From Subsaximicrobium wynnwilliamsii (lineage in GTDB: Bacteria > Bacteroidota > Bacteroidia > Flavobacteriales > Flavobacteriaceae), in NCBI RefSeq assembly GCF_007997225.1, contig NZ_VORM01000013.1:1-64000 (forward strand): DNA of 64,000 nucleotides. Direction: 5' to 3'. Shown here piece after piece: positions 4,042 to 50,112 of the stretch. The position numbers and the translations under genes are program-made. The notes beneath the pieces are model-generated. The model saw only the letters and a program-made list of their open reading frames with translations. It did no database searches and was not told where the DNA came from. Within the stretch, counting starts at the first letter, position 1. Each line of letters opens with the position of its first letter.

Positions 4042-7000
4042 ATGAAAAAATCATTACCCATTTTCCTTATCCTTTGCAGTGTTTTGGCTTATGCCCAACA
4101 AAAAAAGTTTGAGATCAATTGGCAGGATAATAAAGTAATGGAGACCGAAACCACTAAGATGGAAGTCCCTGCTTTTGACGCGGCGCATTTCAGTTTTTCT
4201 GAAGAATCCGGACTAAAATATTTTGCGCAGTGGAAAGTGCCTTCTACCATCAACAGCGGTTCTTTGAAATTGAGCAATTTGTCTTATTCCGTTATGAGTG
4301 CCAATGAGCTTAAGGACTTACCAAGCCAAACCATCCCAGGCTCTCCAAACGCCACCTTGCGCAATGCTGTTGCTCGGGACAATCAATTTGCTTTCCTAGA
4401 GTTTTCGCCCATTATAAAGGAAAATGGTATCTACAAAAAAATAACCGGATTTGTGATTGATTACAGTTATGGATCAAACAGCAATTTGTACGCAAGAAAC
4501 AACGAAAACATAGAGAATTCGGTTTTGAGCTCCGGCAGCTGGCATAAATTTTATGTCGATAAATCGGGCGTTTTCAAATTAAGTAAGAGTTTTCTCGATA
4601 GAATTGGAGTCAATACCAATGTTGACCCACGTACCATAAAGATATTTGGTAATGGAGGCGCGATGCTCCCCTTGATCAATCAAGACTTTTATCCGTTGGA
4701 TCTTACTGAGAATGCCATAAAGTTTGTAGGCGAAGAAGATGGCACTTTTGACACTAACGATTATATCTTGTTTTATGCAGAAGGTCCGCGAGAATACAAC
4801 GATGAAAGCAATACCAATATCAATCTTTTTACCGATAAATCCCACTATTTTGTTAACGTAGGTGCAGGCACTGGCAAACGCATCGCTCCCCTGAACCAAC
4901 CGAGCGCAGCAGCAAATTTGACGGTTGATACTTTTCAAGATTATCAATTTTATGAAACGGATGAGTACAATATTGGCAAACTGGGTAGGCGCTGGTTTGG
5001 CGATCGTTTTGATGTGGAAAACCAGAGGGAGTATAAATTCAATTTTCCAAATTTGGTTAGCTCTGAGCCCGCTAGGGTAAAGGTGCTTACTGGAGCAGTT
5101 AATGAGGGTAACATAAATACAACAATGAGTGTTGTGATAAACGGGCAATTGGTAAACAGTATGACCTTTGCCCCGCTAAGCGCGCAAAGCAACTTGTTGG
5201 GAAGTTCTAGGAGTTACTCAAGCAACATCATCTTGAACGCTGCAGAAGTCACTTTCAATCTAAGTTACGACAATGCCGGTAATCCCACCTCAGTAGGCTA
5301 TTTGGATTATATCTCTATCGAAGCGACCAGGCAATTGCGTTTTGAGGGGGCCCAATTCCCTTTCTATAATAAGGAGGTGTCAACAACGAGCGGTGTTGTG
5401 CAATATAACCTCTCAAATGCTGCAAATGTTCAGGAAATTTGGGACATAACAGATAAATACAATGTGGCGAGCGCCGCAAATTTGGAGCAAACTGCTGACT
5501 TTTCATTCAAGGAAACCGCAGGTTCACAAAAAAAATATGTCATCGTTTCCAATCTCAATTATTATGAACCCTTACGTGATGGAAATTCTTCCGTAGCCAA
5601 TCAAAATTTAAAGGGAACCATTTTCAATAATACTCAAGGGGAGTTTGAGGATGTGGATTACCTTATTGTCACGCCAACTATTTTGCTGTCCCAAGCTCAG
5701 CGATTGGCACAGATCAACAGGGATAGAAATAACTTGAACGTGAAAGTGGTCACGCTTGATAAGATTTATACCGAGTTTAGCTCTGGAAACCAGGATATCG
5801 CAGCCATTCGCAATTTTGTGAGATATATCTATCAGAATGCCAGTAGCCCTGCCAATCGTATAAAATACGTGTGCCTATTTGGAGACAGTTCTTACGATTA
5901 TAAGGATCGGCTACCCAACAACACCAATTTAGTGCCTTCTTGGCATTCTAATAATGCCTTTAGTTTGACGAATTCCTTTGTTTCTGACGATTTCTTTGGA
6001 ATGATGGATCCACAGGAAGGCTCCATGGTTACCTCAGACCGATTGGATATCGCCATGGGTCGTATTCTTGCCGAAACACCTCAACGCGCCAAGGATATGA
6101 TTGATAAGGTTGAAACTTATTACGCCGAAGATTCCTTCGGAAGTTGGAGAAACAACATCGTGGTCATTTCCGACGATATTGATAAGCCCGGAGAGCAAAA
6201 CCTTCAGTTGACCACAGATGCCATTGCTGATGAGATAACTACCCAAAAACCTTTTATAAACGATATAAAAATCCATTCCGATGCCTTTCAGCAGCAAGCT
6301 ACAGCGAGCGGAGAACGCTATCCAGCAGTCAATAAAGCCATAAAAGACGCCATTGAGGTAGGAGCTTTGGTGGTCAATTATTTTGGTCATGGCGGAGAAG
6401 ACGGTTTGGCTGCCGAGCGTATCTTTACCAAGGTAGATGCCCAAGAGATCAGGAATATTTGCAAATACCATCTCTTTGTGACCGTGACCTGTGAGTACAC
6501 CAAATTTGATAACCCCCAACGTTTAACCGCTGGAGAATTTACGTATTGGAATAAGGAAGGTGGAGCCATTGGCTTGATCACGACCACGAGACGTATCTTT
6601 TTGAATACAGGTGTGGATTACAATGTGGTATTGGAGAAGTACTTATTTGCGTACGGTTCTAACGAGTATCCAAGTATGGCGGAAGCCTTGCGACAAACAA
6701 AGAATGACAATGCACTTGCTGGGAACCCCCAAAAAACCTTGGTGTTTTATATCGGGGATCCTGCGATGAAGTTGGCGATACCAAAACCAGATATCAAACT
6801 TAGCGCCGTTAATGATGTGCCTTTAGATCAACAAACTGAAGTGCTCGAGGCTTTGGGTCGGGTCAAAATGTCTGGCAAGGTGTACGATTCCCAAGGTAAC
6901 TTTTTGCCTAATTATAATGGTGTGCTTACCGCCACTGTTTTTGATAAGGAAATACAAAGACAAACGCTCGCCAATGACGGGACAGTAAATGGAGGCGTGG

Positions 7001-7896
7001 TTACAAAGATGGATTTTAGAACCTTGGGCGAAACCATCTTTAGGGGGCAGGCCACGGTTACCAATGGTAATTTTGATTTCAATTTTGTGGTACCACGGGA
7101 TATTGGTGTGCCTGTGGGCAATGGTCGGGTTAGCTTTTACTCAAAACAGGATAATATTTTAGATGATAAGTCGGGATTCAATAACGAGATTCAGGTGGGG
7201 GGCATCAATGAGAATGCTGCGGAAGACAATATTGGCCCGGTCATAAATCTATATATGAACGATGAAAATTTCGTTTCTGGCGGCATTACCAACGAGCAAC
7301 CTACTTTGTTGGCGAAACTTCAAGATGATAATGGCATCAACACAGCAAGCGGCATTGGGCATGACATCACTGCAATCATCGATGGTGATGAGATTAACCC
7401 TTTTATATTGAATGATTATTACCAAGCCAATGTGGACGATTATCAAAACGGAAAGGTAAGCTACCCGTTCAGGGATTTAGAACCAGGATTGCATACCTTG
7501 ACCTTAAAAGCTTGGGATGTTTACAACAATGCAGCCACCGCCGAAATTGATTTTGTGGTGCGTGATAAAGATGAAGAACTGGTCATTGAAAACGTTTTGA
7601 ATTACCCAAACCCCTTTATTGATTATACCGAATTTTGGTTCAATCACAATAGTTCTGATGTTTTGGACGTTTCTGTACAGATATTTACCGTGTCAGGTAA
7701 AATCGTGCGCACGCTCAACGGGCAAACCTCTGGCGGCAGCAAGGTGAGCAGTTCTTTGTCTAAGGATATTGTTTGGGATGGTCGCGATGATTTTGGCGAT
7801 AAAATTGGAAAGGGCGTTTATATCTATAAATTGAAAGTGCGATCCAACCAATTGAACAAGCAGGTGGAAAAGATAGAAAAACTAGTGATACTATAA
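4042..7896 (+). CDS. porU: Type IX secretion sortase PorU (C25 gingipain-family peptidase)
   Basis: PorU is the cell-surface cysteine endopeptidase that removes the C-terminal sorting domain from type IX cargo and attaches the cargo to lipopolysaccharide, acting with PorV. The 1284-residue product has a signal peptide ending AYA-Q. A peptidase C25 domain covers roughly residues 535-900, with catalytic His783 in NYFGHGG and Cys817 in VTVTCEY. A C-terminal sorting-type domain begins near NYPNPF (about 1186) and ends in the typical GKGVYIYKL...KLVIL pattern. The frame is open from an ATG at 4018, but the ATG at 4042 starts a clean signal peptide and is preferred. porV follows after 114 nt. Confidence 0.95.
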   Translation: MKKSLPIFLILCSVLAYAQQKKFEINWQDNKVMETETTKMEVPAFDAAHFSFSEESGLKYFAQWKVPSTINSGSLKLSNLSYSVMSANELKDLPSQTIPGSPNATLRNAVARDNQFAFLEFSPIIKENGIYKKITGFVIDYSYGSNSNLYARNNENIENSVLSSGSWHKFYVDKSGVFKLSKSFLDRIGVNTNVDPRTIKIFGNGGAMLPLINQDFYPLDLTENAIKFVGEEDGTFDTNDYILFYAEGPREYNDESNTNINLFTDKSHYFVNVGAGTGKRIAPLNQPSAAANLTVDTFQDYQFYETDEYNIGKLGRRWFGDRFDVENQREYKFNFPNLVSSEPARVKVLTGAVNEGNINTTMSVVINGQLVNSMTFAPLSAQSNLLGSSRSYSSNIILNAAEVTFNLSYDNAGNPTSVGYLDYISIEATRQLRFEGAQFPFYNKEVSTTSGVVQYNLSNAANVQEIWDITDKYNVASAANLEQTADFSFKETAGSQKKYVIVSNLNYYEPLRDGNSSVANQNLKGTIFNNTQGEFEDVDYLIVTPTILLSQAQRLAQINRDRNNLNVKVVTLDKIYTEFSSGNQDIAAIRNFVRYIYQNASSPANRIKYVCLFGDSSYDYKDRLPNNTNLVPSWHSNNAFSLTNSFVSDDFFGMMDPQEGSMVTSDRLDIAMGRILAETPQRAKDMIDKVETYYAEDSFGSWRNNIVVISDDIDKPGEQNLQLTTDAIADEITTQKPFINDIKIHSDAFQQQATASGERYPAVNKAIKDAIEVGALVVNYFGHGGEDGLAAERIFTKVDAQEIRNICKYHLFVTVTCEYTKFDNPQRLTAGEFTYWNKEGGAIGLITTTRRIFLNTGVDYNVVLEKYLFAYGSNEYPSMAEALRQTKNDNALAGNPQKTLVFYIGDPAMKLAIPKPDIKLSAVNDVPLDQQTEVLEALGRVKMSGKVYDSQGNFLPNYNGVLTATVFDKEIQRQTLANDGTVNGGVVTKMDFRTLGETIFRGQATVTNGNFDFNFVVPRDIGVPVGNGRVSFYSKQDNILDDKSGFNNEIQVGGINENAAEDNIGPVINLYMNDENFVSGGITNEQPTLLAKLQDDNGINTASGIGHDITAIIDGDEINPFILNDYYQANVDDYQNGKVSYPFRDLEPGLHTLTLKAWDVYNNAATAEIDFVVRDKDEELVIENVLNYPNPFIDYTEFWFNHNSSDVLDVSVQIFTVSGKIVRTLNGQTSGGSKVSSSLSKDIVWDGRDDFGDKIGKGVYIYKLKVRSNQLNKQVEKIEKLVIL

Positions 7897-7954
7897 ACTC
7901 GTCTAGGCTTTTTGTCTTTAACCGAAAAGTTAAGTGCTCTTTGCAATAAAAATA

Positions 7955-7962
7955 TATATTTG
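7955..7962 (+). promoter_or_regulatory. Putative porV promoter, -7 box TATATTTG
   Basis: An exact TAnnTTTG match lies in the gap between porU and porV. Transcription would start near 7966, which argues against any porV start upstream of this point and suggests porV can be expressed apart from porU. Confidence 0.5.
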
Positions 7963-8010
7963 TTAACCATTAATTGGTCTAAAAGCCTCCCCATGAACAC
8001 ACACATCCAA

Positions 8011-43989: not shown

Positions 43990-44712
43990 ATGGAATCATT
44001 AAAAAATAAAGTAGCACTCATTACAGGAGGCACAAAAGGCATCGGTTATGGGGTTGCAGAAGCACTATTGAACCAAGGCCTAAAAGTCGTTATTACTAGT
44101 AGAGATGAGGACTCAGCAAAAAAAGCAGCCAAGGAATTAGGCGCAAAAACAAACGCAGCAGCACATATTTTAGGCGTTAAAGCCGATGTGCGAAAGCTCG
44201 AAAGTCAGCAAGAGGCCGTAAAGCAAACCATCGACAAATTCGGAAAATTGGACATCGTAATCGCCAATGCAGGTGTTGGTAAATTTGCGAGTATAGAAGA
44301 TATGACTTCTCAAGAATGGAATGACGTCATTGATACCAACCTCACGGGCGTATTCAATTCTATAAAAGCCAGCGTGGATGAATTGAAGAAAAATAAAGGC
44401 TATTACATTACCATATCCAGTTTGGCAGGTGCAAACTTCTTTGCGGGCGGAGCAGCTTATAATGCGAGTAAATTTGGAGTAACAGGCTTTACACAAGCAG
44501 TGATGCTAGATTTGCGCCAACACGGTGTTAAAGTGAGCACCATTATGCCAGGTTCGGTTTCTACACATTTCAACGGAAATGAACCCAGTGAAAAAGGCGA
44601 TTGGAAAATCCAAATAGAAGATTTAGGTGAATTGGTGGTCGATTTACTAAAAATGAATCCACGAACCTTACCGAGTAAAATTGAGGTGCGCCCATCGATG
44701 CCTCCAGCGTAA
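43990..44712 (+). CDS. Short-chain dehydrogenase/reductase (3-oxoacyl-reductase-like)
   Basis: 240-residue classical SDR with TGGTKGIGYG near residue 13, NAGVG near 90, a Ser in ISSLAG, and YNASK as the catalytic Tyr-Lys pair. The C-terminus RTLPSKIEVRPSMPPA resembles SDRs that reduce sepiapterin or 3-oxoacyl groups, but no substrate is clear. Its last codons share a 15-mer with the repeat array at 49850-50112. Confidence 0.88.
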   Translation: MESLKNKVALITGGTKGIGYGVAEALLNQGLKVVITSRDEDSAKKAAKELGAKTNAAAHILGVKADVRKLESQQEAVKQTIDKFGKLDIVIANAGVGKFASIEDMTSQEWNDVIDTNLTGVFNSIKASVDELKKNKGYYITISSLAGANFFAGGAAYNASKFGVTGFTQAVMLDLRQHGVKVSTIMPGSVSTHFNGNEPSEKGDWKIQIEDLGELVVDLLKMNPRTLPSKIEVRPSMPPA

Positions 44713-44775
44713 AAACGCGATTCATCGCGTTTCCAAGCTGAGTCCATCGATGCCTCCAGCGTAAAAACGCGATTT
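44692..44775. repeat. 52-bp tandem duplication spanning the SDR stop, with ACGCGAT hairpins
   Basis: CCATCGATGCCTCCAGCGTA followed by AAAACGCGATT occurs at 44692 and again at 44744, so the gene's last codons and stop are repeated outside it. The first copy has hairpin AAACGCGAT-TC-ATCGCGTTT (44713-44732). Related to 49850-50112. Confidence 0.75.
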
Positions 44776-44790
44776 ATCACATTTACGAGT

Positions 44791-44861: not shown

Positions 44862-44933
44862 TTCCGTTCGCATAAACCATTTTACCGTTCGTCATATTCT
44901 GGTCAACTCCTCAAAATTGATGCTGTAGTTTTA
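44862..44933 (+). promoter_or_regulatory. Putative LytTR-type operator and promoter of the S9 peptidase gene
   Basis: Direct repeats TTCCGTTCG (44862-44870) and TACCGTTCG (44883-44891) are spaced 21 bp, two helical turns. The second, extended, matches the published LytTR half-site form ACMGTTNRK (ACCGTTCGT). A -7-like box TAGTTTTA (44926-44933) lies 43 bp from the proximal half-site start. An identical geometry occurs at 47327-47398. LytTR regulators (AgrA, AlgR) bind such repeats as activators. Confidence 0.65.
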
Positions 44934-44975
44934 TCATGTTATTAAGATAGAAGTCTAATATAAAATATTAAAAAC

Positions 44976-47264
44976 ATGAAAAATTGCATTACAAAATTAA
45001 GGTACATTATTAGCGTTGTCTCGCTTTTGTGTACCGTGGTATCAGGAGCTCAAAATATTGAGGGAACCTGGACAGGAGAACTTGAAGTACAAGGGGTGAC
45101 TGTAGAAATGAGTTTCAATGTTTCAGAAACAGACGGTGTGTACAGCTCCACATTTGATATGCCCCTTCAAGGTGCAATAGGTATTCCTTTAGAGAACACC
45201 GAGTTTGAAAATTCAGTATTGACCATAGAATCTGAAAAGTATAAGCTAAAATATATAGGAGAATTAAATGAAGGCCAATTGAAAGGGACCTACACGCAAT
45301 TGGGTAAAGCATATGTTTTCAATTTAAATAAAACTGAAAAAAGCCTTCCAGGAGATACTGCATTGCCTTCAAGCGAAGAAGAACTGAGAAAGATTGCGGC
45401 CTTAGAAACGGAACAGTTTAAATATTCAGTAGAAGATTTTTTTGAAAAACCAAGCTTATCTATGTTTAGAATTTCTCCCGATGGAAACTATATTTCTTAC
45501 CGAAAAAAAGATGAGAATGGGAAAAACAATGTTATCGTAAAAGACCTTAGAACCCAAAAAGAAATGGTTGCTATTTACGAAAAAGAAGATTTGGTGCGCT
45601 CCTATTTTTGGAAAGGCAATGACCGCTTAATCTATCTTCAAGATAAGGGAGGTAATGAGAATTATCATTTATTTGGTGCAAATCCAGACGGTTCCAACAA
45701 TGTGGAGTTAACACCTTATGATAAAACGATGGTGCAATTGGCAAATGTATTACAAAATGATCCCAACCATATGGTCATAACCATGAATAAGGACAACGAG
45801 CAATTGTTTGAGCCATACAAAATCAATATCAACACAGGAAAGTTAGAAAAGTTGTTTGACAATACAGATCCTACGACGCCCATTTCTGGATATACATTTG
45901 ATAATGATGGCGTGTTGCGAGCATATTCAAAATTACAAGAGGGAAAATACTTTGAAAACTTCTACAAAAACTCAGAAACCAACGAATTCGAATTTAGAAA
46001 TCAAACCGATTTTGAAAATAACGATGGGATTTTAGCTTTTGATTACACGACTAATAATCCTGACGATGTGTATTTAGTAAGTAATCTCGATAGCGATAAA
46101 TATGAGGTTTATAAGTATGACATGAAAACCAATAAAAAGCTTGCTACGGTTTTCAAAAATGATACTTACGAGATTAGTAGTATGGTCATTTCGTCTAAAA
46201 ATAGAAATTATGAAATTGACTATTATTCATATCAAGGGGCTAAAAATACTATGGTGCCCGTGAGTAAGCTTTATAAAAACATATACGAAAGACTTACTAA
46301 GGAATTTGGTGATAAAGAGATTTCAATTTTGAGCTATGACAAAAATGAAACGCAATTTATTGTCCATATTTCCAGTGATAAATTACGAGGCATTTATTAC
46401 CTCTATAACATCGAAACCAACGCCATTGAAGAACTTGCCAATATGTTGCCTCATTTGGAGGAAAAGGACATGGCAGAAATGAGACCAATCAGCTTTATAA
46501 GTCGCGATGGAAAAACCCTTCATGGCTACATCACATTACCTAAGGCTGCATTGAATGGTAAAAGCGTACCCTTGGTTTTAAATCCGCACGGAGGACCTTT
46601 TGGAGTGAGGGACAGCTGGACGTTTAGTGATGAGGCACAATTGTTTGCGAGCAGAGGTTATGCCACGTTACGAGTTAATTACAGAGGTTCTGGAGGTTAT
46701 GGCAAGGCATTTCAAATATCAGGGCATAAACAAATTGGTCGCGCCATGATTGATGACCTTGAGGATGGGGTTAAATACGTCATCAATCAAGGTTGGATTG
46801 ATGAAGAGAGAGTAGCGGTTTACGGTGCAAGCTATGGTGGTTTGGCAACATTGCAAAGTTTAATCAAAACACCAGGCATGTATGTTTGCGGTGTTGATTA
46901 TGTTGGGGTGTCTAATTTGTTTTCTCAATTGGAGAATTTCTCTGGAGTACGTAAATCCTACATACAATGGTACAAAGACAGGTATTACGATCCAGAAAAC
47001 ACTATTGAACATAAAATCATGACTGACGCTTCTCCTGCACTGAATGCCGATAAAATTTCACAGCCTTTATTAGTAATCCAAGGAGCAAACGACCCAAGGG
47101 TCAAAATTGAACAGGCAGACCAAATTGTGAAAAACATGCGAGCAAGAGGTATCGACGTGCCCTATATGGTAAAGTACGATGAAGGTCATGGTTTTGCTCA
47201 CGAAGCAAACAGAATAGAGCTCTATGAAACCATTCTAGGGTTCTTTGCCCAACATTTAAAATAA
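44976..47264 (+). CDS. S9-family prolyl-oligopeptidase-like serine peptidase with extra N-terminal domain
   Basis: 762-residue secreted peptidase. Signal peptide ends VSGAQ. Residues about 27-125 form a small beta-rich module (EGTWTGELEVQGVTVEMSF, then LKGTYTQLGK) of the kind seen ahead of secreted hydrolases. A beta-propeller follows (about 140-490) and then an alpha/beta-hydrolase domain with Ser619 in YGASYGG, Asp706 in GANDPRV and His738 in DEGHGF. It would cleave short peptides in the periplasm. Promoter region carries a putative LytTR operator, so the kinase/regulator pair at 48054-49840 probably controls it. Confidence 0.9.
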   Translation: MKNCITKLRYIISVVSLLCTVVSGAQNIEGTWTGELEVQGVTVEMSFNVSETDGVYSSTFDMPLQGAIGIPLENTEFENSVLTIESEKYKLKYIGELNEGQLKGTYTQLGKAYVFNLNKTEKSLPGDTALPSSEEELRKIAALETEQFKYSVEDFFEKPSLSMFRISPDGNYISYRKKDENGKNNVIVKDLRTQKEMVAIYEKEDLVRSYFWKGNDRLIYLQDKGGNENYHLFGANPDGSNNVELTPYDKTMVQLANVLQNDPNHMVITMNKDNEQLFEPYKININTGKLEKLFDNTDPTTPISGYTFDNDGVLRAYSKLQEGKYFENFYKNSETNEFEFRNQTDFENNDGILAFDYTTNNPDDVYLVSNLDSDKYEVYKYDMKTNKKLATVFKNDTYEISSMVISSKNRNYEIDYYSYQGAKNTMVPVSKLYKNIYERLTKEFGDKEISILSYDKNETQFIVHISSDKLRGIYYLYNIETNAIEELANMLPHLEEKDMAEMRPISFISRDGKTLHGYITLPKAALNGKSVPLVLNPHGGPFGVRDSWTFSDEAQLFASRGYATLRVNYRGSGGYGKAFQISGHKQIGRAMIDDLEDGVKYVINQGWIDEERVAVYGASYGGLATLQSLIKTPGMYVCGVDYVGVSNLFSQLENFSGVRKSYIQWYKDRYYDPENTIEHKIMTDASPALNADKISQPLLVIQGANDPRVKIEQADQIVKNMRARGIDVPYMVKYDEGHGFAHEANRIELYETILGFFAQHLK

Positions 47265-47326
47265 GCTTCAAAAATAATGGAGGCTGAATATTAAACCTAT
47301 TTAGCCTCTTAAATTCTATTGAATTT

Positions 47327-47398
47327 TTCCGCTCAGCACAGTCTATTTACCGTTCGCCATAATGCTATAGGAATAACCCGCAGTACTAATTATTTTTA
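47327..47398 (+). promoter_or_regulatory. Putative LytTR-type operator and promoter of the membrane protein / kinase / regulator operon
   Basis: Half-sites TTCCGCTCA (47327-47335) and TACCGTTCG (47348-47356) are 21 bp apart, and -7-like TATTTTTA (47391-47398) starts 43 bp after the proximal half-site. Geometry is the same as at 44862-44933. Autoregulation by the LytTR regulator encoded downstream is the simple reading. A weak hairpin after the S9 gene (GAGGCT / AGCCTC, 47280-47308) separates the two units. Confidence 0.62.
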
Positions 47399-47503: not shown

Positions 47504-48007
47504 ATGAAACTTTATCATGCAAAAGCACCAGACAATTTCCAAAAGCAACTTCAAACCTTTAAGGCCTTACTCAAAGGCTCCATGATGGCCAAAACATCAA
47601 GTTTTATGCTTATCGCAGTATCTTTAGTTTTGGCCTACAAATCACGAGATAATATGTTAAATGTTTTGTTGCTGTTAACAGGAATGGCGAGTGTGGTTTT
47701 CTATATCATTAAGCATTTATCATTACAGGAAATTAAGCAGAAATCATACACCCAAAGGTCATTAATGTCCAGTATTTCAAAATTCAAAGCGTACATGGCC
47801 AATAGAAAAAAATATGAAATTTATTTTCTAGGCTTTTGGATCATCTCACTCATTCCTTATGCAACATCGTTTTTAGATTCTAAACTACATGCCATTTTGT
47901 TCGCAATACTTTATATTGCCGTAGTTACGGTTCTTGGTAATTTAGCCTATAAAAAAATAGATAAAATAATTGCACACTTAGAATCGGAATTACAGAGCAT
48001 TCAATAG
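47504..48007 (+). CDS. Uncharacterised four-helix membrane protein
   Basis: 167 residues, family not recognised. A soluble N-terminus (MKLYHAKAPDNFQKQLQTF) is followed by two hydrophobic helices (about 32-48 and 52-68), a basic cytoplasmic-type loop (IKQKSYTQRSLMSSISKFK), two more helices (about 104-122 and 126-146) and a charged C-terminal helix. It precedes the histidine kinase by 46 nt and probably shares its transcript, so a sensing or accessory role is possible. Confidence 0.7.
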   Translation: MKLYHAKAPDNFQKQLQTFKALLKGSMMAKTSSFMLIAVSLVLAYKSRDNMLNVLLLLTGMASVVFYIIKHLSLQEIKQKSYTQRSLMSSISKFKAYMANRKKYEIYFLGFWIISLIPYATSFLDSKLHAILFAILYIAVVTVLGNLAYKKIDKIIAHLESELQSIQ

Positions 48008-48053: not shown

Positions 48054-49112
48054 ATGAAATTAATTACGAATTATAAATACTGGATCCTAAATTTCATAGG
48101 ATGGATAGCCTTTGCGTTTTTAATGCTTACCATTGATAAGATTTCTTCATCGGTAGGTCCAGATTCTAATCGATTTTACTATTTGATTTCTGAGGGGTTT
48201 CTCTGTGGGTTTTTAGGTTTTGCACTGTCGTTTATTATTCTGTTTTACGTTGAAAACTACTTCGATGTTGGCGATTTCAGTAAGAGAAATATTGTGGGAT
48301 TGGTATTGGTATTTACAGTGACTCAAATTATATATAATGTCTTGCTTTGGCCAATTTTAGATATCCCTACAGCTTACTTTTTAGATAGCTCATTTGAAAT
48401 TTCCTTTTTTAGTAAGTTGACCAACATCCCGCATTTTGCAGCGTATTTTGTAGTGTGGCTATTCGTCATTTTTACAATTAAGATTTATTATCACATCAAC
48501 ATTATCAAACTTCGTCAAGCCCAACTTCAAACCAGTTTAAAAGAGTCACAACTCAATACATTGAAGGGGCAAATAAATCCGCATTTTATGTTTAACAGCC
48601 TAAATAATATAAGAGGTTTGATGCTGGAGGATGTGGACAAATCGAGAAGAATGCTTACTAGTCTTTCTGAAACCATTCGGTATTCATTAACTAAAACCAA
48701 TGTGACGTCCATAGCGTTAGAGGATGAGTTAGAAATGGTCCAGAACTATGTAGAGATCTCTAAAATTCAATTTGAAGATCGTTTGCAGTTTGAGACCGAA
48801 ATTGATGAGGCATCATTGACCAAACAAATTCCGCCAATGATAATTCAAATGCTGGTTGAGAATGCCATCAAGCACGGAATTTCAAATTTGAAAAATGGAG
48901 GTGAGGTGCGATTGACTACGGAAGTGTCTTCGGAATATTTAAAGATTGAAGTTATAAATTCAGGTCAAATTCAGAAGCATCAAAACGGAACCCAATTAGG
49001 TTTAAAAAATATTGAACAACGTTTGGACTTGTTGTATTCAAATCAAGCAACATTCAGTCTCACTGAAAACGCCCACCAAGTCATCGCCACTATAAAAATC
49101 CCACTGTCATGA
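48054..49112 (+). CDS. LytS-like sensor histidine kinase
   Basis: 352-residue membrane kinase of the His_kinase (PF06580) class. Four membrane segments lie within about 10-145 (ILNFIGWIAFAFLML, FLCGFLGFALSFIILFYV, VGLVLVFTVTQIIY, AAYFVVWLFVIFTI). A linking coiled coil precedes QINPHFMFNSLNN with His177 as phospho-acceptor; the ATPase part has MLVENAIKHG and GLKNIEQRL. There is no separate periplasmic sensor domain, so signals are likely read in or near the membrane. The stop overlaps the regulator start by 4 nt. Confidence 0.92.
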   Translation: MKLITNYKYWILNFIGWIAFAFLMLTIDKISSSVGPDSNRFYYLISEGFLCGFLGFALSFIILFYVENYFDVGDFSKRNIVGLVLVFTVTQIIYNVLLWPILDIPTAYFLDSSFEISFFSKLTNIPHFAAYFVVWLFVIFTIKIYYHINIIKLRQAQLQTSLKESQLNTLKGQINPHFMFNSLNNIRGLMLEDVDKSRRMLTSLSETIRYSLTKTNVTSIALEDELEMVQNYVEISKIQFEDRLQFETEIDEASLTKQIPPMIIQMLVENAIKHGISNLKNGGEVRLTTEVSSEYLKIEVINSGQIQKHQNGTQLGLKNIEQRLDLLYSNQATFSLTENAHQVIATIKIPLS

Positions 49113-49840
49113 TTGTCTTAAAAGCTGTAATCGTTGAGGATTCTCGTTTGGCTCGCAATGAGCTCAAGGAACTCATAAAAACACATCCAGAAATTGAGCT
49201 GTTGGGCGAAGCTAAAAATGTAGATGAAGGTTATGAACTTATTAATGAGACAAAACCAGACCTCTTGTTTTTAGATATTAATATGCCCGAAAAAGATGGT
49301 TTTGAACTTCTCGAAATGTTGGATGAGGTACCCATCACCATTTTTACCACAGCCTTTGATGAGTATGCCATAAAATCTTTTGAGTATAATGCCTTTGATT
49401 ATTTATTGAAACCGATCAATCAAAAACGATTTTCAAAAAGTATCGAGAAGGTAATTGAAAACGCCACATCAAATCATACTCAAGAGCCACAAAAGGAGGA
49501 TGTTTTACATTTAGACAAGCAGATTTTTATTAAGGATGGTGAAAAGTGCTGGTTGGTAAAGGTTCAGGATATTTCTCTTTTTGAGATTGTTGGCAATTAT
49601 ACGCGAGTCTTCTTTAAGGGCAATAAACCCTTGATCTATAAATCCTTGGCTCAAATTGAAGAAAAGCTGCCATCAGATGTTTTTTTCCGTGCAAACAGGC
49701 AACAGATCATCAACATTCATCACGTTAAAAAAGTGGTATCATGGTTCAACGGAAAACTAAAAATAGAAATGCACTCAGGCGAAGAGATTGAAATCTCTCG
49801 CAGGCAATCCTATTTGTTTAAGGAACAATTGAGCTTTTGA
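49109..49840 (+). CDS. LytTR-family response regulator
   Basis: 243-residue regulator. Receiver domain 1-120 with acidic pair E10-D11, phospho-acceptor Asp56 in LLFLDINMP, and Lys in FDYLLKPI. The LytTR DNA-binding domain covers about 140-243 (GNYTRVFFKG, FFRANRQQIINIHHVKK, MHSGEEIEISRRQSYLFKEQL). Start overlaps the kinase stop (ATGA). The likely targets are the two 21-bp-spaced direct repeats upstream. Confidence 0.93.
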   Translation: MIVLKAVIVEDSRLARNELKELIKTHPEIELLGEAKNVDEGYELINETKPDLLFLDINMPEKDGFELLEMLDEVPITIFTTAFDEYAIKSFEYNAFDYLLKPINQKRFSKSIEKVIENATSNHTQEPQKEDVLHLDKQIFIKDGEKCWLVKVQDISLFEIVGNYTRVFFKGNKPLIYKSLAQIEEKLPSDVFFRANRQQIINIHHVKKVVSWFNGKLKIEMHSGEEIEISRRQSYLFKEQLSF

Positions 49841-49849
49841 TGCCAGCAC

Positions 49850-50112
49850 CGTAAAGACGCGATTTATCGCGTGTCCGAGGTTTATCGCGTGTCCGAGGTG
49901 CGCCCATCGTTGACACCTGCGTCGCGACTTATTGTGTTTCTGAGCTGTGCCCATCAGTGTCACCGCCGTAAAGACGCGATTTATCGCGTGTCCGAGGTTT
50001 ATCGCGTGTCCGAGGTGCGCCCATCGTTGACACCTGCGTCGCGACTTATTGTGTTTCTGAGCTGAGTCCATCAGTGTCACCGCCGTAAAGACGCGATTTA
50101 TCGCGTGTCCGA
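49850..50112. repeat. 117-bp tandem repeat, about 2.2 copies, with ACGCGAT hairpins
   Basis: CGTAAAGACGCG occurs at 49850, 49967 and 50084. Each unit has hairpin ACGCGAT-TT-ATCGCGT, a nested short repeat (TTTATCGCGTGTCCGAGG) and the 15-mer GAGGTGCGCCCATCG (49895 and 50012), which also occurs in the SDR 3' end at 44683-44697. Non-coding by composition. Confidence 0.85.

Follow-up and report, generated by a model that had tools for sequence, protein, structure and literature searches.

At a single locus of Subsaximicrobium wynnwilliamsii, two closely similar pairs of direct repeats precede an S9-family peptidase gene and an operon encoding a sensor histidine kinase and a LytTR response regulator: are they the operators of the neighbouring regulator, and does the latter act through them on the peptidase gene as well as on its own? 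The best reading is a LytTR two-component system of known kind with a small envelope regulon and self-activation; as judged from sequence comparisons, we assign a probability of roughly 0.86 to the view that the operators belong to the regulator encoded at 49109..49840 and that the system activates both itself and the exported S9 peptidase.

The window (the whole stretch of 64,000 nucleotides that was analysed) is contig C30 of a 4.9 Mb genome of 99.98% completeness. At the locus, the gene order is SDR enzyme, S9 peptidase, M167, histidine kinase, LytTR regulator and, on the opposite strand, an ORF of 2034 aa; the S9 peptidase, M167, kinase and regulator genes and both operators are on the plus strand. 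The S9-family peptidase (44976..47264; 762 aa; PF00326, 157.5 bits) carries an N-terminal hydrophobic leader (segment 4-22) and the motifs GASYGG, GANDPR and EGHGF. M167 (47504..48007) is a small membrane protein of 167 aa, for which the alignment with nine relatives and three hydrophobic segments were used in the assignment; the Pfam and NCBIfam collections, searched at E 0.001, yielded no match. The sensor histidine kinase (48054..49112; PF06580 His_kinase, 88.6 bits) has a hydrophobic N-terminal half with four to five segments, and the histidine of its NPHF motif is residue 177; as Pfam returned no further domain at E 0.001, a LytS sensor domain goes unrecognised in this protein. The start of the regulator gene (49109..49840) overlaps the kinase stop codon (ATGA); its product contains a receiver domain (PF00072, 73.4 bits; aspartate 56 in the LDI motif) and a LytTR DNA-binding domain (PF04397, 84.1 bits), both of which score over the curated Pfam cut-offs. 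The kinase and regulator assignments made in the original prediction are thus borne out.

Operator 1 consists of the upstream half-site TTCCGTTCG (44862..44870) and the promoter-proximal half-site TACCGTTCG (44883..44891), followed by the conserved extension TCATATT (44892..44898; matrix columns 29-35, consensus TCATAWW) and the -7 box TAGTTTTA (44926..44933). Operator 2 is composed of the upstream half-site TTCCGCTCA (47327..47335), the same promoter-proximal half-site TACCGTTCG (47348..47356), the extension CCATAAT (47357..47363, assigned by matrix) and the -7 box TATTTTTA (47391..47398); both proximal half-sites were assigned by sequence reading and by matrix. The two pairs had been predicted at these places with equal geometry, and the sequence check agreed: in each pair the two 9-mers begin 21 bp apart, and each promoter has a TAnnTTTA box whose first base lies 43 bp past that of the second 9-mer. 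Otherwise the promoters are unlike, as had likewise been claimed, with identities of 4/28 between operator and box, 17/60 upstream of the operator and 17/48 from the box onward. With 9-mers and a 12-nt spacer, both operators fit the definition of a LytTR site given in PMC4847170 (repeats of 9-11 nt, spacer of 11-13 nt).

A genome scan with the strict pair returned two matches in 4.9 Mb, both at the locus, versus none for the reversed-pattern control. At ≤3 mismatches, the degenerate pair stayed at background level (40 matches, the two sites included, versus 43 in the control) and yielded no third site at 0-1 mismatch in this genome; one half-site plus CATA at ≤2 mismatches was unenriched across the genome (71 matches versus 167 in the reversed control). 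Specificity resides in the near-exact pair. The matrix, which was built from 58 plus-strand sites found by a mismatch rule in the loci of other species with the window left out, assigned 43.9 bits to operator 1 and 38.9 bits to operator 2 in the 64 kb. The third-best place reached 7.5 bits, and no score above 11.4 bits was obtained when the window was simulated 60 times with a first-order model. By scan, the predicted targets in this genome are two promoters only, those of the S9 peptidase and of the operon; relatives appear to have additional ones.

For the comparison with relatives, one-per-species genomes were scanned with the regulator, and the best 80 of 536 loci, mostly from Flavobacteriaceae by title and with regulator identities of 68-89%, were each scored by a matrix leaving the respective locus out (threshold 14 bits). 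In these best 80 of 536 loci, 130 sites of at least 14 bits were counted, every one of them on the strand that encodes the regulator; four were dropped, each overlapping a higher-scoring site by 21 bp, and the 126 non-overlapping sites, a count that is inflated by kinship among the loci, are spread over 78 of the 80 loci and fall outside the mechanically called genes in 124 cases. The site is therefore conserved in relatives that keep the locus. Siteless at 14 bits among the best 80 of 536 loci were L160, the sequence of which starts just 135 bases ahead of the regulator, and L090, which has a candidate of 12.6 bits. The consensus is TTNCCGTTCRS-N10-TTACCGTTSGTCATAWW, the TCATAWW extension being present behind the second half-site only. 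S9 matches were found in 30 of the best 80 of 536 loci (28 long, two partial ones of ~115 residues), and the operator fronts S9 in 28 of these 30, two of the 28 being partial S9 matches; L142 and L144 contain S9 with no operator before it. Ahead of the kinase, 78 loci of this set (best 80 of 536) have a site at a distance of no more than 3 kb. Since S9-front and kinase-front sites recur across loci, both window promoters are part of a conserved arrangement. A deviating composition was observed in L126, L122, L128, L133, L149 and L159 (~5840-8004), where two tandem kinases precede the regulator at the place of M167 and the single kinase of the window.

The distance to the promoter is equally constant: in 109 of the 126 sites (best 80 of 536 loci), TAnnTTTR is located exactly 42 bp past the A of the second ACCG (i.e. 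43 bp from the preceding T), and in six further ones at 41 or 43 bp, the background frequency of the box being 0.0023 per position. The T-richness of the -33 region is weak in the sites at related loci. According to PMC9723704, the TAnnTTTR box is the sigma-A -7 element, positioned at -12 to -5 in Flavobacterium psychrophilum. Projected onto this numbering, the core of the second half-site would occupy positions from about -54 to -47, with the extension stopping near -40, beside the -33 region: a position where a polymerase-touching activator would be expected to sit. Activation is suggested here by analogy, the precedent being HdrR of Streptococcus mutans, which binds repeats upstream of -35 and activates its own operon (gel shift, reporters; PMC6193735).

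Alternatively, the regulator might bind the sites yet repress, with the kinase signal lowering or lifting expression. The direction of control is unreadable from sequence and negative autoregulation is common; we nevertheless consider repression unlikely, because the promoter follows the operator and is not covered by it, the core of the second half-site starting 42 bp before the -7 box. In addition, TTTG, the promoter element at -33, is absent (by eye) from this place in both window promoters, which fits an activator-dependent promoter. The similar repeats of S. mutans, too, serve activation (PMC6193735).

Could the sites instead belong to another regulator, e.g. another LytTR protein of the genome, with the neighbouring pair being merely a target? 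The host genome contains 13 LytTR domains, so that cross-binding is conceivable, and one weaker site stands in a genome without the ortholog (G228, see below), but the distribution of the operator makes this explanation very improbable. In a survey of 249 genomes of the family, based on the exact degenerate pattern (not the matrix) and on a regulator ortholog at E 1e-80, the operator was found in 21 genomes (reversed control: one, G150) and the ortholog in 28. Operator and ortholog coincide in 20 genomes, that is, in 20 of the 21 operator genomes (Fisher p 4e-22; 3e-21 without the own genome); 8 of the 28 ortholog genomes gave no exact degenerate-pattern match, the matrix not being the measure here. 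Of the 28 family sites, 26 share the strand of the regulator gene and precede it by 1.27-4.21 kb. Within the genus, exact-pattern sites are confined to 4 of 23 genomes, namely the three with the ortholog (87-100%) and the relic-bearing G002, while 19 of the 20 remaining genus genomes retain regulator homologs at E 1e-30. The strict pattern matched, among the 23 genus genomes, the own genome only, the sites of G003 and G018 being variants caught by the degenerate pattern; six other genus genomes had one-mismatch matches (control: three), all with matrix scores of ≤9.7. Five sister kinase-regulator pairs of 48-50% identity all had full-matrix scores of ≤5.2 on both strands.

The G002 locus (L204 6342-6760, G002:C5) is situated between a lipoprotein gene and a large opposite-strand gene and comprises an S9-type operator of 35.8 bits, an M167 fragment and a regulator tail of 45 residues (87% identity); it is a decaying relic of the locus in a sister species.

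Chance or background similarity, to which the unenriched single half-site and the background level of the pair at ≤3 mismatches might point, is refuted in the case of the pair, which is both conserved and set at a constant distance from the promoter; the probability of this reading is practically negligible. In sum, the tie of both operators to the neighbouring LytTR regulator, as proposed in the original prediction, is supported by conservation, by ortholog co-occurrence and by the match to the BtsR site of Escherichia coli described below.

As the target of a site we took the nearest called gene downstream with a length of ≥45 codons; since genes were called mechanically and the distance between site and called gene reaches 2.9 kb in some cases, small genes may have been overlooked. 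On this basis, the 126 sites in the best 80 of 536 loci precede the kinase cluster (30), the S9 peptidase (28), hydrophobic proteins of ~67 aa (20), M167 (18), a lipoprotein of 436 aa (7), exported ankyrin proteins (6), hydrophobic proteins of 117 aa (4) and others (13). In the domain scan of targets, which covered ten proteins, the representative of the 436-aa lipoprotein cluster matched GldB_lipo with 36.0 bits (cut-off 27).

The remaining two of the 28 family sites lie elsewhere. In G224 (L205 5139-6149, G224:C30), a trans site of 43.8 bits precedes two exported ankyrin-repeat genes on a contig other than the regulator's; the kind of target matches the cis targets of other loci, and the ankyrin pair is placed directly downstream of genes resembling an operon that we take to be that of Na+-NQR. 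The other one, a site of 19.3 bits in the ortholog-free genome G228 (L206 4730, G228:C13), precedes an alpha/beta hydrolase gene in the same neighbourhood, its markers presumably being obg and adk. By eye, the TAnnTTTR box is likewise positioned at 42 bp in both.

To return to the activating two-component system: that the sensor-regulator pair turns on itself and the peptidase is strongly suggested by the paired operator, which is kept at a fixed promoter distance in many flavobacteria. The mechanism that we infer, with regard to binding and activation as well as to the signal, would be the following: The kinase encoded at 48054, signalled from the membrane, would phosphorylate the regulator, as expected from family knowledge; a regulator dimer would bind both direct repeats on one face of the DNA (21 bp correspond to about two turns), with the subunit nearer the promoter stopping immediately before the -33 region; and sigma-A RNA polymerase would be recruited by the bound dimer to the promoters with the TAnnTTTA box. 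As a result, the exported S9 peptidase would be switched on together with the M167/kinase/regulator operon, the latter constituting a positive feedback. Judging from the targets in the relatives (exported peptidases or hydrolases, small membrane proteins, exported ankyrin proteins) and from the feedback, the signal would most likely be a cue from the envelope or a peptide.

Among known LytTR systems, the BtsS/BtsR (YehU/YehT) pair of E. coli shares the operator spacing of 21 bp at btsT (yjiY); this site is given as ACCGCTTA-N13-ACCACTCA by an oligonucleotide in a table of PMC4847170. With the two-half-site matrix, the btsT site reached 21.6 bits, more than any other place in the 853 bases surrounding the start of btsT; none of 200 shuffles attained this score. 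The E. coli site, of the operator type ACC(G/A)CT(T/C)A-N13-ACC(G/A)CT(T/C)A, hence agrees with the flavobacterial core matrix, and the window sites represent T-rich variants of this type. Likewise, the NCBIfam model that best matches the window regulator is BtsR, although the score of 175.4 bits is below the NF008677 cut-off of 246. BtsS is a pyruvate-binding, LytS-type sensor with multiple TM segments, and its system controls a pyruvate transporter. The window kinase has PF06580 as its sole Pfam domain, the TCATAWW extension is missing from the btsT site, and the window targets are a peptidase and the own operon; a pyruvate transporter was not among them, the genome scan giving only the S9-peptidase and operon sites. 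The operator core is common to E. coli BtsR, whereas the targets are unlike and the sensor appears to be so.

In LytTR Regulatory Systems (LRS), a membrane inhibitor protein holds the LytTR regulator; LRS, to our knowledge, operate without a kinase. In LRS such as HdrRM/BrsRM of S. mutans, the repeats, e.g. ACCACTTAT-12 bp-ACCGCTTAT, are situated shortly before -35 (PMC6193735). LRS resemble the window system in their similar 9-mer direct repeats and in the small membrane protein of the operon; what sets the window system apart is the receiver domain of its regulator, the partner kinase and the peptidase as a second target. For Bacteroides LRS-like operons, direct repeats are in print there as predictions: these are 11-mers, 22 bp apart, with 45 bp (arithmetic on the table) rather than 42 bp between the first base of the second repeat and TATCTTTG, and belong to another type of regulator. 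YpdA/YpdB of E. coli binds sequentially to two sites, direct repeats of 9-11 nt separated by 11-13 nt (PMC4847170); repeat length and spacer range thus correspond to the window operators, in contrast to the repeat sequence GGCATTTCAT and the target. The earlier premise of a shared LytTR consensus needs qualifying: PMC6193735 speaks of a broad one whereas PMC4847170 denies a common one. PSP-type envelope systems were considered as a parallel and rejected: in the literature consulted, LytTR is mentioned only beside Toastrack genes, with an example from the Firmicutes.

In the published literature searched, parts of which were available in excerpt, the operator and a kinase-regulator-S9 regulon are undescribed, and the related repeats met with were those predicted for the Bacteroides LRS-like operons (PMC6193735). 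This literature describes neither how operator and promoter are arranged in the subfamily nor which targets it has, while similar repeats with positive feedback are already in print (PMC6193735). The locus provides an exactly defined operator together with the geometry of its promoters and a group of conserved targets: the exported S9 peptidase, small membrane proteins and exported ankyrin proteins, as well as the system itself.

Beyond the family, 36 upstream stretches of Bacteroidia homologs were picked from 97 places besides that of the window (35 outside the family; regulator identity 45-65%). The 21-bp pair was found in none of the 36 at 17 bits, the weakest of the 126 known sites having 17.3 bits on this measure. 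A post hoc scan of the spacings 14-29 in 35 stretches (the same-family one omitted), which involves few sites, revealed a single peak at 20 bp, with 15 plus-strand versus 3 minus-strand matches at 13 bits; in 5 of the 15 plus-strand matches, TAnnTT is located exactly 42 bp from the start of the second half-site. The 15 other spacings gave plus-strand counts of 2 to 8 and a lone match with the box at 42, at a spacing of 22 bp. For the sister pairs L080-L084 and the Hymenobacter plasmid pair L213, the best score on the half-site measure at both spacings was 14.8 bits, and none of the best matches had the box at 42.

A class-wide rule is tentatively proposed from these comparisons, at slightly less than even odds: A LytTR subfamily of the Bacteroidia may use a fixed layout, in which the proximal half-site core of a BtsR-like pair starts 42 bp before the -7 box, the spacing to the other half-site being variable (21 bp for the flavobacterial clade versus 20 bp for several families). 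Given the constancy of the 42 bp at spacings of 20 and 21 bp, the constant distance would run from the promoter-proximal half-site. If this rule holds true, the proximal subunit would contact RNA polymerase, and the regulons of many uncharacterised kinase-LytTR pairs would become readable from genome sequence.

The locus is moreover flanked by intergenic repeats built around GTAAAGACGCGATTTATCGCGT, the core of which is palindromic; they are located ahead of the S9 operator (44709-44782) and behind the regulator gene (49851-50106). Five copies are present in the window at ≤3 mismatches versus none expected, and the 16-base core has 29 genome matches at ≤1 mismatch versus 2 for the reversed control. 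These repeats look like REP-type elements; the matches of their core cluster on the contigs C30, C56, C78 and C88.
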